Positions 404 to 13,301 of a DNA stretch of 64,000 nt are shown here, in pieces (within the stretch, counting starts at the first letter, position 1; the number at the start of each line of letters is the position of its first letter). The notes under the pieces are model-generated. The model was not told where the DNA came from and made no database searches. It saw only the letters and a list, made by a program, of their open reading frames with translations. The DNA is taken from positions 1 to 64,000 of the forward strand of contig NSIP01000007.1 in NCBI GenBank assembly GCA_002737725.1. Reading direction: 5' to 3'. The DNA comes from Rhodospirillaceae bacterium (GTDB taxonomy: Bacteria > Pseudomonadota > Alphaproteobacteria > Rhodospirillales > Rhodospirillaceae). The translations under genes were made by a program, and so were the position numbers.

Positions 404-747
404 AACCGGAGGCGCCGGACCCACCACGCATAGCTTTTCTTAAGAGCGTAGCGAATTAGAAAAGCTGTTGCCCTGCCGGAGCGAAGTAATTGAGTCACTG
501 AGATCGCCTGACATTTGCAGTCTCTTCACGCCCGACTTCATCATACACATGATCTATAAGCTTGGATTGAATTTGTCGATCTATAAATGACAAAAATAAA
601 CCTTTCCAAAAAGATATTTGTCAACAGGCTTGTTGCGTTCTTCGGGCGGTGACGTGACAATACCGAAAGTATTACTGTATCACGGCGCCATTCGGATCTC
701 TTCTTAGCATAAGGCTAGGCGGGGGCCGGCCGTTCCAGGAGGCCAAA
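404..747. promoter_or_regulatory. Intergenic region upstream of the molybdenum enzyme operon
   Basis: No gene is visible in this 344-base stretch. It contains a perfect 9-base inverted repeat (432-440 with 458-466, AGCTTTTCT and its complement, 17-base loop). Nearer the gene is a small dyad AATAC-CGAAA-GTATT (659-673), about 75 bases before the start codon, which could be an operator. The segment around 540-620 is AT-rich. A clear ribosome binding site, AGGAGG, lies just before the ATG at 748. No -10/-35 pair can be assigned with confidence. Confidence 0.35.
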
Positions 748-3705
748 ATGAAATTTTCAGTCCTACTATGGGGATTGGTCCAAGCTTTGAGATTGGCGGC
801 GCGGTTTTATCCGGCCTTCGCGGCCCGTTTGCGGGAACGCAACGTTATTGCTCAGTTTAAGATTCGGGACAATTCGGCTGGGCGCTGGATCGCGTTTGAG
901 AACGGCAAGGTCAAATCAAAAAGCGGCATTCACCCGAAGCCGGATGTGACGATCTTTTTCCAAAACGAAGCGATTGCCGTAGAGTTTTTGACGCCCCCCT
1001 TTGACCAGCTTGTGCGGATCGATGCGGCCAAAAATTTCAAAGTTGGCATGGACGGTCCCGATGAGTTGGTCGTTTGGTTTGCATCCACGCTGACATTTAT
1101 GACGACGGTGGGATGGAAGAGCGGCACCGATATGGGTAACGGCGTCATGCGTTATACCAACGGTACCAATGGGGGGCCGATCTTTGTGTACGTCAAGGAT
1201 GGCAAAATCGTCCGCCTCACGCCCATGGAATTCGATGATGATGACGCGCCATCGTGGTCCATTAAAGCTCGCGGCAAGACTTTTACGCCGCCACGCAAGA
1301 CGTCATTGGCCTCCCATGGCTTGGCGCTTAAGTCGATGGTCTATTCCAAGGATCGCATTAACTATCCCATGAAGCGGGTCGACTTTGATCCTGATGGCAA
1401 CCGCAACATTCAAAATCGCGGGAAGTCTGAATTTGTGCGCATCAGTTGGGATGAAGCGCTCGAGATTGTCGTCAAGGAAATCAAACGCGCCAAGGCCGTT
1501 GGCCGCGGGGCGATCCTTGCTGCCAGTGGCTCACATCACCAGTGGGGAAATTTCGGGCATTATCTCAGCGCCTTTGGCCGGTTCATCAATCTTGTCGGTT
1601 GCACCAAGGTCATGGGCAGTCCCGATAGTTGGGAGGGATGGTTCTGGGGCGCGATGCACCACTGGGGCAACAGCATGCGCCTGGGCACCCCAGAGTTCTA
1701 CGGCACGGTCGAAGACTGCCTGAAAGAGGCCGAGATGATCGTGTTCTGGTCCAGCGATCCCGATAAAACCTATGGCTACGAGGGAACCATTCGGCGTGGT
1801 TGGGCTAAGGAACTGGGCATCAAGATGGTGCACATCGATCCCTACCTCAATCACACCGCAGCGCTGATGGGTGGCAAGTGGTTCGCGCCCAAGCCCGGCA
1901 CGGATGCAGCACTTGCCCAAGCGCTGTGTCACGTGTGGATCACGGAGGGGCTTTACGACAAGGAGTTTGTTGAAAAACGATCCACCGGATTCGAGGAATG
2001 GAAGACTTACATCCTTGGGCAAGCCGACGACACACCAAAGACACCTGAATGGCAGGAAGCCGAGACGGGAATTCCCGCACGCGAGGTCAGAGCACTGGCG
2101 CGAGAGTGGGGACGTAAGAAAACGTATCTCGGCGCGGGAAGTTGGGGGTGTGGTCTTGGAGGTGCGGGTCGCGGACCTATGGGTGCGCAATGGGCGCGGA
2201 TGATGGCCATCCTCGGGGCGATGCAGGGCTACGGACGGCCCGGTGTGAACTTCGGGAATCTGCAATTCGGTGCGCCGTTGGACTTTTCCTTCTATTTCCC
2301 AGGGTACTCTGAAGGGGGGATGTCTGGCGAACTAACCCAGAGCGCTAACGCAGCCAACAATTATCAGCGGATGCCGCACATCGTGACCATGAATTCAGTA
2401 CGGCAGTCTATTCCTCGGAAATTCATACCCGAGGCGATTATTGACGGAAAAGCCGCCGGCTTTGTGACGGACGTCTCGAGTGTTCAGGGCCAATTCCAAA
2501 GGACTGGCTACCCGGCGGCAGGGCACGCCAAAATTGAGATGATGTACAAATATGGAAGTTCATCATTCGGGACGCAGATCAACGGCAATCGTTACGTGAA
2601 GATGTATCAGTCGGAGAACTTGAAGTTTGTCGTCAACCAATCGATCTGGTGGGAAGGCGAGACAAAGTACGCCGACGTTATTTTGCCGGCCTGCACGGTG
2701 TTTGAGCACTGGGATATTGGCGAATGGTACAACGTGGGCACTGGTTATGTGCATCACATGTATTCGATGAACAATCACCGCGTCATATCGTTACAGCACA
2801 AGTGCATTGAGCCTCTGGGCGAGTCGAAGTCCGATCACGATATCTTCCTTGAAATTTGCAAACGTCTGGGCCTGGGCGCGGTCTACTCAGAGGGTGGCAA
2901 TACCGAGCTTGATTGGTGCAAACGGGCTTTCGATTCTTCCGATATGTCGAAACACACGACCTGGAAGAAGTTTCTCAAGAAGGGTTATTACGTCGTGCCG
3001 CCTGTTTCTGAAGGAACACGTGCGCCCACTGCCAATCGCTGGTTCTATGAAGGGCGGAACAAGGATGTCCCCGAGCCCTATCCATTGCCGGCCGATTACG
3101 TCGCCGACTATGGCAAAGGGCTGCAAACACCTTCAGGCAAGTTCGAGTTCGTGGCGCAGACGCTCAAGAACATTGATGATCCGGAACGCCCACCGCTGAA
3201 CAAATATATCCCGACCTATGAGAATTCGAAGAAGGATGCGCGCTTTAAAGACTTTCCTCTGCAGCTCCTTTCGCCACACTCACGCTATCCCTTTCACATC
3301 ATGGGTGATGAGCGGGGCTGCACCATTCGCGACATCAAAGAGCACCGCGTGCGGGTTGACGACCACGAATACTTGGTCGCCATTATCAACCGGCAGGATG
3401 CAGAGGAGCGGGGAATCAAAGGCGACGACCTTATTCGTTTGTGGAACTACCGCGGCTCGGTTGTTTGCGCGGCGTATGTGACCGATCGGGTTAGGCCGGG
3501 CATCGTCACCGCCCCCACAGCCTCGGCCGAATTCAGGCCCGTGGGCGAGCCGGGCAATTCGACCGATCTGGGGGGATGCGTGAATTTGCTCACGCCCAGT
3601 GAGAATATGACGCCACTCACCCATAGCATTAAGCCCAATGCCGCGCTGATCCAGATGGAAAAATGGACCGGTGTTGACACCTGGCGGCGCCAGGAGGCCG
3701 TGTAA
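748..3705 (+). CDS. Pyrogallol-phloroglucinol transhydroxylase-type molybdopterin enzyme, large subunit, with SCP2-like N-terminal domain
   Basis: From about residue 135 to the end (985 aa) this closely follows the large subunit of pyrogallol hydroxytransferase (TthL), a DMSO-reductase-family enzyme with a bis-MGD molybdenum cofactor. Conserved marks are VYVKDGKIVRLTPMEFDD, ARGKTFTPPRKTS, GSHHQWGN (residues 261-268), PDSWEGW (292-298, with the Asp-Ser pair that in TthL is the active-site Asp and the Mo-ligating Ser), FYFPGYSEGG (515-524) and QSIWWEGE. No Tat signal or N-terminal FeS Cys motif is visible, as in TthL, so it is probably cytoplasmic. The first 125 or so residues are extra relative to TthL (about 875 aa) and resemble an SCP2 sterol-carrier fold (W-x-F-x-x-G-K-V, then pDvTI); that assignment is my inference. 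The stop overlaps the start of the small-subunit gene. The actual substrate is unknown: hydroxyl transfer on a polyphenol is the family precedent. Confidence 0.85.
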   Translation: MKFSVLLWGLVQALRLAARFYPAFAARLRERNVIAQFKIRDNSAGRWIAFENGKVKSKSGIHPKPDVTIFFQNEAIAVEFLTPPFDQLVRIDAAKNFKVGMDGPDELVVWFASTLTFMTTVGWKSGTDMGNGVMRYTNGTNGGPIFVYVKDGKIVRLTPMEFDDDDAPSWSIKARGKTFTPPRKTSLASHGLALKSMVYSKDRINYPMKRVDFDPDGNRNIQNRGKSEFVRISWDEALEIVVKEIKRAKAVGRGAILAASGSHHQWGNFGHYLSAFGRFINLVGCTKVMGSPDSWEGWFWGAMHHWGNSMRLGTPEFYGTVEDCLKEAEMIVFWSSDPDKTYGYEGTIRRGWAKELGIKMVHIDPYLNHTAALMGGKWFAPKPGTDAALAQALCHVWITEGLYDKEFVEKRSTGFEEWKTYILGQADDTPKTPEWQEAETGIPAREVRALAREWGRKKTYLGAGSWGCGLGGAGRGPMGAQWARMMAILGAMQGYGRPGVNFGNLQFGAPLDFSFYFPGYSEGGMSGELTQSANAANNYQRMPHIVTMNSVRQSIPRKFIPEAIIDGKAAGFVTDVSSVQGQFQRTGYPAAGHAKIEMMYKYGSSSFGTQINGNRYVKMYQSENLKFVVNQSIWWEGETKYADVILPACTVFEHWDIGEWYNVGTGYVHHMYSMNNHRVISLQHKCIEPLGESKSDHDIFLEICKRLGLGAVYSEGGNTELDWCKRAFDSSDMSKHTTWKKFLKKGYYVVPPVSEGTRAPTANRWFYEGRNKDVPEPYPLPADYVADYGKGLQTPSGKFEFVAQTLKNIDDPERPPLNKYIPTYENSKKDARFKDFPLQLLSPHSRYPFHIMGDERGCTIRDIKEHRVRVDDHEYLVAIINRQDAEERGIKGDDLIRLWNYRGSVVCAAYVTDRVRPGIVTAPTASAEFRPVGEPGNSTDLGGCVNLLTPSENMTPLTHSIKPNAALIQMEKWTGVDTWRRQEAV

Positions 3706-4562
3706 TGACCAACAAATGGAATCTGATTGTTGACGTCGCGCGCTGTGATAACTGCCGCAACTGCTTTCTCGCGACCAAGGACGAGCATATCGGCAACGAT
3801 TTCCCGGGTTACGCCGCCTCACAACCCGAACGCACGCATAGTTGGGTCGATATCAAGACGAAGGAGCGTGGAAGCTGGCCCATCGTCGAGGCGCACTTCA
3901 TGCCGGTGATGTGCAACCACTGCGATGATGCGCCATGCATGAAAGTCGCGAAGGACGGTGCGATCACCAAGCGTGCTGACGGCATCGTGATCATCGATCC
4001 TGTGAAATCGAAGGGGCAAAAAGCGATTGTTGACGCATGTCCCTACGGCGCGGTCTATTGGAATGAGGAAAAGCAGATCCCGCAGGCCTGGATCTTCGAC
4101 GCGCATTTACTCGACCAAGGCTGGACTAAGCCGCGCGTCGAGCAAAGTTGCCCAACCAGTGTGTTCCGTACGCTGAAGGTAACCGACGACGAGATGCGGC
4201 AGATTGCCAAGCAAGAAAGTCTTGATGTTCTGCTCCCGGAGCAAAACTCAAAACCTCGCGTTTATTATAAAAACTTGCATCTGATGACCTCGTGTTTCGT
4301 GTCTGGGTCCGTGGTGGTTCATGTCAAGGGCGTGGAAGAGTGTGCCGCAAATGCAGACGTCGTCCTGAAGCGTAATGGGGCCGAAGCCGGGCGCACCACT
4401 ACTGATGTCTTTGGAGAATTCAAGATTGATAAACTTGAACCGCGAAGTGGCCGATATGAACTGCAGGTCGGCTTAGAGCCTGCGCACAGCTTATCGCTAA
4501 CGTTAGATCTGGTTGATGACAGCCTGAACTTAGGTGTCATGACCCTCAACGCGAAGGCATAA
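3705..4562 (+). CDS. Transhydroxylase-type small subunit, iron-sulfur protein with one cluster's ligands missing
   Basis: This 285-aa protein matches the pyrogallol hydroxytransferase small subunit (TthS): ferredoxin-like Cys motifs, then KPRVYYKNLH and a C-terminal Ig/transthyretin-like domain (about 200-285). Cys are kept at 14, 17 and 20, at 70, 73 and 78, at 112 (CPYG) and at 149. The fourth Cys of motif I is Thr24, and the late CxxC of the family is replaced by Trp129-Ile-Phe-Asp132. The missing residues are those that jointly bind one cubane in related NrfC/DmsB-type subunits, so two of the three [4Fe-4S] clusters of TthS probably remain. The gene starts on the last base of the large-subunit stop codon, so the two are co-translated. 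It ends 127 bases before the convergent katG. Confidence 0.85.
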   Translation: MTNKWNLIVDVARCDNCRNCFLATKDEHIGNDFPGYAASQPERTHSWVDIKTKERGSWPIVEAHFMPVMCNHCDDAPCMKVAKDGAITKRADGIVIIDPVKSKGQKAIVDACPYGAVYWNEEKQIPQAWIFDAHLLDQGWTKPRVEQSCPTSVFRTLKVTDDEMRQIAKQESLDVLLPEQNSKPRVYYKNLHLMTSCFVSGSVVVHVKGVEECAANADVVLKRNGAEAGRTTTDVFGEFKIDKLEPRSGRYELQVGLEPAHSLSLTLDLVDDSLNLGVMTLNAKA

Positions 4563-4689: not shown

Positions 4690-7053
<2,364 letters not shown>

Positions 7054-11527: not shown

Positions 11528-11729
11528 GTTCTGTCAAGTCTGGAAGCTAGCATCGGGCTTCTAACCTGCGCGCTTTATTTGGTATAAAACAGCGTACTTT
11601 CGTGAATAAGTGTTATGCGTTTTTGCCAACAGTGCAGCCCCATAGCCCGCCGGGTGGGCAGTGTGGAGATTGCCTGGGAGCTCCATGCTGACCTATCCTT
11701 ATGCTTCGAGCGTAAATTTGGGGATTGCC

Positions 11730-13301
11730 ATGTTACATCAATGGGGCGTGCTTGCGGTCGTGATTCTGGGCTTTGCGTCAGGTGCGCATGCACAAGCGCC
11801 GAGCGATACTTCTAAACAGTGCGCAGCGGTAGCGGGAACGGATTTCTCGAGGGTGATGGACGCCCCGACACAGATCACGTCGTCAAAGAATGTTGCGGCG
11901 ACAACGGACTTACCAGCATTTTGCCAGGTGCAGGGCTATGTTGCCCCGGCGGTAGGGTTTGAGTTGCGTCTGCCCATGTCGGATTGGAATGGCAAGTTTT
12001 TCAAAGTCGGCTGTGGCGGCTTCTGTGGAGCGGTATTTACTGCCGCCTGTAACGCTCCGTTGAAGAAAGGCTACGCCTGTATCGCATCGGATATGGGTCA
12101 TAAGTCGACGGCGCTCGATGCGAAGTGGGGTTATAACAACACCCAGACGGAAATCGATTTCGGTTATCGAGCAACGCACGTCAGTGCCGTCGCGGGCAAA
12201 GCGATTACCCAGCAGTTTTATTCAAAAGCCCCCACGCGCTCGTACTACGCGGGTTGCTCGACCGGCGGACGCCAAGGTTTGGTCGAGGCGCAACGCTTCC
12301 CCTATGATTTCGACGGAATCATTGCAGGCGCACCGGTCATCAACGAAACCGGCGCAGGGATGCAATTGCTTTGGAACGTCGTCGTTAACCGCGACAAGTC
12401 GGGCAAACAAATTCTCGGGCCAGATGAGGCCAGAATGGTCAACGCCGCCGTGGTGAACAAGTGCGACATGCAAGACAATGTTGAAGATGGCATCATCGGC
12501 GATCCGCGCACCTGTAAATTTGATCCAGCCGGATTGCAGTGCAGGGGTAGCCAGACTGCAAATTGCCTGACGCCTGAGCAGGTGAGTGTTGTGAGGAAAA
12601 TCTATGCGGGCCCGAAAAATTCACAAGGATTAGCTCTCTATACGGGGGGTGCCTTGCCGGGTTCGGAGATGAACTGGATCGACAATTACATCAGCCGTGA
12701 TGGCGCTGAGTCCACGTACTGGAAGTTCATGGGCGATTTGTTCCGCTATATCGGTTTCATGCCAGACCCAGGCCCCGATTGGCAGCCAACGCAGTTTGAT
12801 TTTGACCGCGACTATAAGCGGCTGGGGATGATGGAGACGATGTACTCGGGCTCGAACCCAGATTTGCGCAAGTTCAAATACAACGGCGGTAAAATCATCG
12901 CTTACCAAGGCTGGGCCGATCAATCCGTGGTGCCGCTGAATGTGATCGATTATTACGAGCTGACCGAGCGCACCATGGGCGGTCGTGCCGCAACGCAGGA
13001 TTTTTTCCGCCTGTTTATGGTCCCTGGCATGAATCATTGTCGCGGGGGCGTGGGTGCTGATGCGATTGATTATCTCGGTCATCTTGAGGCCTGGGTCGAA
13101 CAGGGCAAGGCCCCTGACATGGTGCTGGCCACACGTCTCAAAGACGAGGCTGCGGCGAAGTATTTGCCAACGGGCTACAGCTTTCCGCTTGCCGCGAGTG
13201 AAGTGGAATTTACACGGCCTGTGTATCCCTATCCGGCGGCTTATCGCTACAATGGCTCTAGCGACGCTAAAGATGCGGCTAGCTTCAAAATGACAAAGTA
13301 A
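11730..13301 (+). CDS. Secreted tannase/feruloyl esterase family protein
   Basis: An α/β-hydrolase of the tannase and feruloyl esterase family, which hydrolyses ester bonds of gallate or hydroxycinnamate esters. The nucleophile motif GCSTGGRQG has Ser177, preceded by Cys176. The acid is in GWADQSVVP and the His is in VPGMNHCRGG, followed by Cys: the CS-D-HC arrangement of this family, where the two Cys form a disulfide. I choose the ATG at 11730 because it gives a clean signal peptide (MLHQWGVLAVVILGFASGAHA, cut before QAP) and GGGGA lies upstream; earlier in-frame starts extend to 11661. The mature enzyme is about 500 aa with several Cys, consistent with export. The last base of its stop is the first base of the next start codon. 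Confidence 0.9.
   Translation: MLHQWGVLAVVILGFASGAHAQAPSDTSKQCAAVAGTDFSRVMDAPTQITSSKNVAATTDLPAFCQVQGYVAPAVGFELRLPMSDWNGKFFKVGCGGFCGAVFTAACNAPLKKGYACIASDMGHKSTALDAKWGYNNTQTEIDFGYRATHVSAVAGKAITQQFYSKAPTRSYYAGCSTGGRQGLVEAQRFPYDFDGIIAGAPVINETGAGMQLLWNVVVNRDKSGKQILGPDEARMVNAAVVNKCDMQDNVEDGIIGDPRTCKFDPAGLQCRGSQTANCLTPEQVSVVRKIYAGPKNSQGLALYTGGALPGSEMNWIDNYISRDGAESTYWKFMGDLFRYIGFMPDPGPDWQPTQFDFDRDYKRLGMMETMYSGSNPDLRKFKYNGGKIIAYQGWADQSVVPLNVIDYYELTERTMGGRAATQDFFRLFMVPGMNHCRGGVGADAIDYLGHLEAWVEQGKAPDMVLATRLKDEAAAKYLPTGYSFPLAASEVEFTRPVYPYPAAYRYNGSSDAKDAASFKMTK

Follow-up and report, generated by a model that had tools for sequence, protein, structure and literature searches.

Transhydroxylases are regarded as enzymes of strict anaerobes, and the closest solved one, pyrogallol hydroxytransferase (BthLS/AthLS, PgtL; PDB 4v4c-4v4e), pairs a large molybdenum (Mo) subunit, BthL, with a small iron-sulphur (Fe-S) subunit, BthS, which holds three clusters on 12 cysteines. 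The SCP2 domain has precedent as a module of enzymes acting on apolar substrates. The window analysed here, a stretch of 64,000 nucleotides from a Rhodospirillaceae bacterium (contig NSIP01000007.1), carries on its forward strand a gene pair of related type. The first gene (748..3705) encodes a large subunit of 985 amino acids with full-length matches in relatives, in which a predicted SCP2 domain is fused to a transhydroxylase-type Mo subunit; the second (3705..4562) encodes a small Fe-S subunit of 285 amino acids. This fused form is a conserved branch that has apparently not been described before, and it occurs mostly in bacteria with oxygen-respiration genes. A literature search found no paper pairing a transhydroxylase with SCP2 or sterol carrier, the spelling 'SCP-2' not being covered.

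Architecture of the large subunit

Residues 133-975 of the large subunit (1144..3672, +) are homologous to BthL residues 4-869, with an E-value of 3.5e-272 to pyrogallol hydroxytransferase (4v4c_A) as against 2.7e-63 to the next solved match, dimethyl sulphoxide (DMSO) reductase. A family scan placed an AhtL-like domain 1 (PF21423) at residues 143-197 (1174..1338, +). Alignment to BthL located His263 (BthL His144; 1534..1536, +), Asp293-Ser294 (BthL Asp174 and Ser175; 1624..1629, +), Trp295 (BthL Trp176) and, within FPGY, Tyr520 (BthL Tyr404; 2305..2307, +); the serine is the family's Mo ligand according to PMC10100899. The small subunit is homologous to the BthS type (4v4c_B, E-value 1.3e-68). 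Because of the full-length homology to BthL, the AhtL domain 1, the conserved serine ligand, aspartate, His144 and Tyr404, and the BthS-type partner, the large subunit is assigned by homology to the RhL/PgtL (transhydroxylase) branch of the DMSO-reductase family. The original prediction, made from the letters of the window, had named this family and these active-site motifs, and both were confirmed. The genome of the window holds four PF00384 matches and a single PF21423 match, which is this large subunit. A reductive dehydroxylase or an S- or N-oxide reductase, as found elsewhere in the DMSO-reductase family, is improbable: the NCBIfam models for BisC, TorA and DmsA gave weaker matches, all far below their cut-offs, whereas pyrogallol hydroxytransferase is by far the best solved match and AhtL domain 1 is present.

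Ahead of the position equal to BthL residue 4 stand 132 residues. A Pfam scan of the window's N-terminal domain alone matched no model; among 30 N-terminal domains of the family, 11 matched PF02036 (SCP2) weakly at E-values up to 1 (best 0.0024, the window's domain not among them), and the next family was PF14864, the alkylsulfatase C-terminal domain, with three of the 30. Searches of the PDB with the sequence of the domain and with its profile returned nothing meaningful. The domain was then modelled with AlphaFold2 from 30 rows (pLDDT 83.7, pTM 0.73). Foldseek retrieved 31 chains with E-values of at most 0.001 (4e-6 to 9e-4), all of them SCP2-type, UbiJ or alkylsulfatase-type (YjcS included), and VIA aligned 111 residues of the model to SCP-2L (6z1w) with a Z score of 12.1 and a root-mean-square deviation of 2.9; the first VIA row outside SCP2, UbiJ, AF1534 and the alkylsulfatase type was a methyltransferase with a Z score of 7.5. 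Identity to the SCP2-type structures in the VIA rows is 8-19%. Residues 1-121, as aligned to 6z1w (748..1110, +), are thus predicted by the model, together with the weak PF02036 matches, to have the SCP2 fold, and the SCP2-like domain that had been proposed in front of the catalytic part was recovered by structure prediction. The domain most likely binds the apolar part of the substrate. An AlphaFold2 model of the full-length protein was discarded (pLDDT 66).

Distribution and evolutionary relatedness

Of 94 candidate stretches obtained by scanning 84,980 species genomes, 87 were true relatives; the best 80 of these, at 76 loci (designated L; genomes are designated G), were kept. The scan relied on six exact peptide patterns, of which KNFKVGMD comes from the SCP2 part; it is therefore biased towards close, fused relatives and does not amount to a census. 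The relatives belong to Alpha-, Beta- and Gammaproteobacteria, Acidobacteria and delta-labelled bacteria, with one Bathyarchaeon. The match starts at residue 1-6 of the query in 67 of the 76 loci and later in eight, all of which lie at most 40 bases from a contig end; the remaining one, the bathyarchaeotal L073, is unfused and matches from residue 135 with 50% identity. One locus titled Candidatus Marinimicrobia (L026) has a gene that groups with that of the window, and its label is doubtful. When 398 genomes of Pseudomonadota were drawn and up to 16 candidates in each were scored, PF21423 exceeded its cut-off in the window's own genome only, plus one weaker match, which suggests that the gene is rare.

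In 11 of 78 genomes from the window's kin, its own genome counted, the match is fused and starts at profile position 1-3; two more have a partial one (G452, G493). Several of these genomes also hold loci of the scan above, L026 among them. In G502 there is an unfused homolog (514 bits) in which several BthL catalytic positions are absent; this 859-residue member and an Fe-S subunit lie at 8703-12096 of L133, with neighbours that resemble, by eye, corrinoid methyltransferases and O-demethylases. Within the window's own genus the gene is present in three of five genomes, one of which (G434) is nearest to the plasmid-borne genes described below (59-63% identity). Plasmids of named bacteria also carry the fused gene: the best eight records, from Burkholderia, Paraburkholderia, Ensifer, Sinorhizobium, Rhizobium, Cupriavidus and Salipiger, have 52-55% identity from residue 1 or 3 to residues 977-984. 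On the plasmid of Sinorhizobium terangae (L112, 12423-13899) the SCP2 and catalytic parts lie about 1.5 kb apart, and the gene looks interrupted.

The structural match of the N-terminal domain to UbiJ led us to consider an oxygen-independent hydroxylase of quinone (ubiquinone) biosynthesis, with the SCP2 domain holding polyprenyl phenols as UbiJ does. We regard it as very improbable, because a Ubi hydroxylase exceeds its curated cut-off in 16 of 18 carrier genomes (the other two being Acidobacteria), and because the patchy presence within one genus and the location on plasmids fit an accessory function.

The evolutionary relatedness was assessed from two trees of the catalytic part, obtained by quick search with SH-aLRT support only; 61 rows of branch A, as defined below, entered the first tree and 27 of these the second, which alone includes the plasmid records (branch C). 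All fused rows form one clade, outside which BthL and L073 fall (100% support); both of these are long branches, and their pairing is unsure. Within the clade, branch B consists of L058, L061 and L078 (94-96%), a further group of L063 and L080 (83-91%), and L068 and L069 join branches A and C in one group (98-99%). Branch C (eight rows) and branch A, to which the window belongs, each have 100% support. The fusion is conserved among these relatives. A COX1-family gene was found in 34 of the 37 genomes searched, the window's genome being one of the 34; it is missing from the genomes of L058, L061 and L073, the last of which is the unfused locus. Since the sulphate reducer carrying L078 also has one, the gene by itself is no proof of an aerobic lifestyle. 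The oxygen-exposed cell anticipated from the neighbouring genes agrees with these data. The cultured plasmid hosts are usually grown with air, and some titles of metagenome-assembled genomes (MAGs) point to lakes and sea.

Substrate pocket and Fe-S clusters

The pocket alignment comprises 70 rows (68 of the 76 loci, BthL and the window; eight loci shorter than 780 residues were left out). In BthL numbering, His144, His145, Ser175, Trp176, Tyr404 and Cys543 are kept in all 70 rows and Asp174 in 67. At five positions of the BthL pocket (Tyr152, Arg153, Trp354, Phe468 and Cys557), the enzyme of the window has the changes Y152H, R153Y, W354L, F468T and C557V. The first two correspond to His271-Tyr272 of the window (1558..1563, +), identical in 61 of 61 branch A rows; the pair is Tyr-Arg in BthL and L073, Tyr-Trp in branch B and Tyr-Tyr in branch C, where L109 alone has Tyr-Trp.

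For the small subunit, 68 of the 76 loci could be aligned, giving 70 rows; L013, L029, L062, L071 and L072 stop at or near a contig end, L053 is too short, and beside the large-subunit genes of L063 and L080 no small-subunit gene was found. BthS Cys23, Cys126, Cys129 and Cys145 are all lost in 65 rows, including the window, in which eight of the 12 cluster cysteines are kept; all 12 are kept in only five (BthS, L058, L061, L073 and L078). After addition of the eight branch C rows, Cys23, Cys126 and Cys129 are absent in 73 of 78, and every one of these 73 has Trp at position 126 and Asp at 129. Leaving L063 and L080 aside, the loss is a single change on the tree. In subunits of the ferredoxin type, one cluster is ligated by cysteine four of the first group and cysteines one to three of the last, and because the missing cysteines match this ligand set, the pattern looks like the loss of exactly one [4Fe-4S] cluster. 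The loss of these ligands (all four in branch A, three or four in branch C) is a new observation here. The large subunit of the window has no cysteine before residue 285 and thus no Fe-S site at its start.

The cluster loss bears on another possibility, a genuine hydroxylase like resorcinol hydroxylase (RhL), which would take oxygen from water and pass electrons out through the small subunit. RhL and PgtL are one Ser-ligated family according to PMC10100899, and proteins of the NmrA type, which bind NAD(P), are repeatedly encoded close to the branch A genes (11 loci; one member scanned). A lost Fe-S cluster speaks against a longer electron path, unless that cluster lay off the path, and we consider this alternative rather unlikely.

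Phloroglucinol-type operons in branch B

In L058 and L061, genes for a cyclase (PF04199), an SDR, a 3-hydroxyacyl-CoA dehydrogenase (3HCDH) and a beta-keto acid cleavage (BKACE, PF05853) protein precede those of the large and small subunits. The same four gene families make up the phloroglucinol pathway of C. scatologenes (PGR-DPGC-TfD-TAL; PMC10470551). Among NCBIfam models, that of the 3,5-dioxohexanoate enzyme fits the BKACE protein of L061 best, with a score under the model's cut-off, and the best solved match of the L058 SDR is 5g4k, a phloroglucinol reductase. The two stretches (L058, 2-7960; L061, 1223-9496) come from MAGs labelled Deltaproteobacteria, given as Myxococcota in the origin line of the tree. 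The third member, L078, has genes for beta-keto acid cleavage and LigB and, judged by eye, ones resembling FAA hydrolases as well as two for cyclases. Two of the three branch B members thus lie in a phloroglucinol-type operon, L058 and L061. As the fusion also occurs in an operon of anaerobic type, the SCP2 domain by itself is no marker of an aerobic setting.

Among the 37 genomes searched, a cyclase match of at least 43% identity was found only in those of L058, L061, L073 and L078, that of L063 giving 37%; with the DPGC-type query from L061, none above 30% was found in the 29 branch A genomes, own included. This bears on the reading that the fused protein is an ordinary pyrogallol-phloroglucinol transhydroxylase for small water-soluble phenols, the SCP2 domain serving merely for docking or stability. 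The conserved catalytic His, Asp, Ser and Tyr and the operons of the fused relatives agree with it, and for branch B it is unaffected by the objections; for branch A, the missing cyclase and the five altered pocket positions make it unlikely. The claim of a polyphenol transhydroxylase is not supported for the window, given the pocket changes, the absence of a ring-opening cyclase match in its genome and the lost ligands of one cluster.

Neighbourhoods in branches A and C

Genes for an FAA hydrolase, an acyl-CoA synthetase and a VOC protein lie by the gene pair in seven of the eight branch C records, and an OmpW or FadL porin is near it in six. L106, L108, L110 and L111 share a VOC protein of 356 residues, three of the four with OmpW; the rhizobial L107, L112 and L113 have a different VOC protein, a FadL-type porin and TetR. 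The 356-residue VOC protein and the FAA hydrolase give HpaD- and HpaG-like family matches, far below cut-offs. That the enzyme of the window has a hydrophobic substrate may fairly be inferred, and the porins and acyl-CoA synthetases beside the branch C genes strengthen this.

Open reading frames clustered near the gene in the 76 loci encode VOC proteins (15, 14 of them directly upstream), the NmrA-type proteins (11), MoeA (10), a TorD-like chaperone (9), CN_hydrolase (8) and DUF1838 (5); the names rest on scans of one or two members per cluster, and further molybdenum-cofactor genes were seen by eye. A same-strand gene ends at most 350 bases upstream in 43 of the 76 loci. A full-length homolog of the VOC protein is present in 22 of the 29 branch A genomes, usually with further paralogs: the identity is at least 66% in 12 of them, the genome of the query counted, and 44-46% in 10, among these the window's genome (45%, G000:C34). 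None was found in the four genomes that have the cyclase, and the VOC protein gave no PDB sequence match. Around two VOC paralogs of the own genome and in five stretches of other genomes, the surroundings were housekeeping or mixed by eye, with no pathway. In L063, a gentisate 1,2-dioxygenase-like gene (2030-3049, below cut-off) ends 14 bases ahead of the fused gene, and in the alphaproteobacterial L006, L042 and L059 exported-looking genes (DUF1592/DUF1552-like by eye) recur near the branch A gene.

In the window itself, an AGGAGG ribosome-binding site (737..742, +), read from the sequence, lies 5 nt upstream of the ATG at 748, and the small-subunit start at 3705 overlaps the large-subunit stop codon (3703-3705) by one base. 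A transposase-like remnant (10-345, -) stands, by eye, at the contig end, and on the other side lies katG (4690-7005, -; by eye) with a twin-arginine-like N-terminus (SRRNVLAA). A tannase/feruloyl esterase-like gene (11661-13298, by eye) was dropped as a candidate partner, a relative occurring in only one other locus, L005.

Proposed function

From the sequences we infer a reaction and substrate, a cellular location, a role for the SCP2 domain and a meaning of the cluster loss. The protein would be a two-subunit Mo enzyme, probably cytoplasmic, that hydroxylates phenolic rings or moves hydroxyl groups between them at a Ser-ligated Mo-bis(molybdopterin guanine dinucleotide), its SCP2 domain holding or delivering an apolar substrate or co-substrate such as an alkyl- or terpenoid-tailed phenol. 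Going by the operon context in branch B, the ancestral fused enzyme probably took part in making phloroglucinol in anaerobic cells, and the SCP2 domain would have been gained at that stage. The branch of the window would then have entered oxygen-respiring bacteria, the pocket changing and one small-subunit cluster being lost, which fits a redox-neutral chemistry without need for an electron exit; the product would enter an oxygen-dependent route. We put the probability of this reading, in which a Mo enzyme hydroxylates an apolar phenol held by SCP2 or transfers a hydroxyl group on it and has moved from anaerobic phloroglucinol formation to oxygen-respiring hosts, at about 0.5. A more specific version is tentative and rather doubtful: the branch might hydroxylate phenolic lipids (e.g. 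alkylresorcinols) on its own lipid-binding domain, as a redox-neutral, O2-free step before O2-dependent ring cleavage, and the redox-neutral chemistry would explain its shortened electron chain. A literature search on alkylresorcinol ring cleavage found no paper.

Several observations weigh against the main reading. The pocket residues of the window differ from those of BthL, and the reaction may therefore differ as well. Cys145 is retained in seven of the eight branch C small subunits (seven of the 73 depleted rows, all in branch C). No catabolic partner adjoins the gene pair in the window, where the contig end cuts off the left neighbours, and branch A surroundings vary between loci. VOC matches are weak or missing in seven of the 29 branch A genomes (the five acidobacterial ones and those of L011 and L036); VOC is moreover a large superfamily, its survey covered carrier genomes only, and, by eye, the branch A VOC protein has no canonical extradiol ligand set. 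Homology between the VOC proteins of branches A and C was rejected, no similarity being detectable, and nothing closely related to the branch C FAA hydrolase or porins was found in the branch A loci compared. In the Salipiger record (L109), the branch C gene set is missing apart from distant matches, and the gene pair lies in a different aromatic island. Intradiol ring cleavage as the next step was also rejected, the dioxygenase occurring in three of 18 genomes and not in the own.

If the proposal is true, the conserved fused, cluster-depleted branch would represent a new ring-hydroxylation route in oxic water and soil. The natural series of enzymes with 12 or eight cluster cysteines, with SCP2 or none, suits testing what the Fe-S chain does.

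Comparison with known systems

The enzyme of the window resembles BthLS/AthLS in that both subunits are homologous along their length, His144, Asp174, Ser175, Trp176, Tyr404 and Tyr560 are kept, and the large subunit has no Fe-S site at its start. Unlike BthLS, it has 132 extra N-terminal residues with the predicted SCP2 fold, changes at pocket positions 152, 153, 354, 468 and 557, and a small subunit without Cys23, Cys126, Cys129 and Cys145; a search of its genome for the phloroglucinol ring-opening cyclase gave no match. Its N-terminal domain shares the fold of the SCP2 domains of MFE-2, alkylsulfatases and UbiJ, from which it differs in the partner enzyme and by an identity of only 8-19%. 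With RhL/RhS of Azoarcus anaerobius it shares the Ser-ligated hydroxylating branch, as described in PMC10100899. The PGR-DPGC-TfD-TAL cluster (PMC10470551) finds its counterpart in L058 and L061, where fused genes adjoin genes of the same four families; of its members, the cyclase alone was looked for in the window's genome, with no match.

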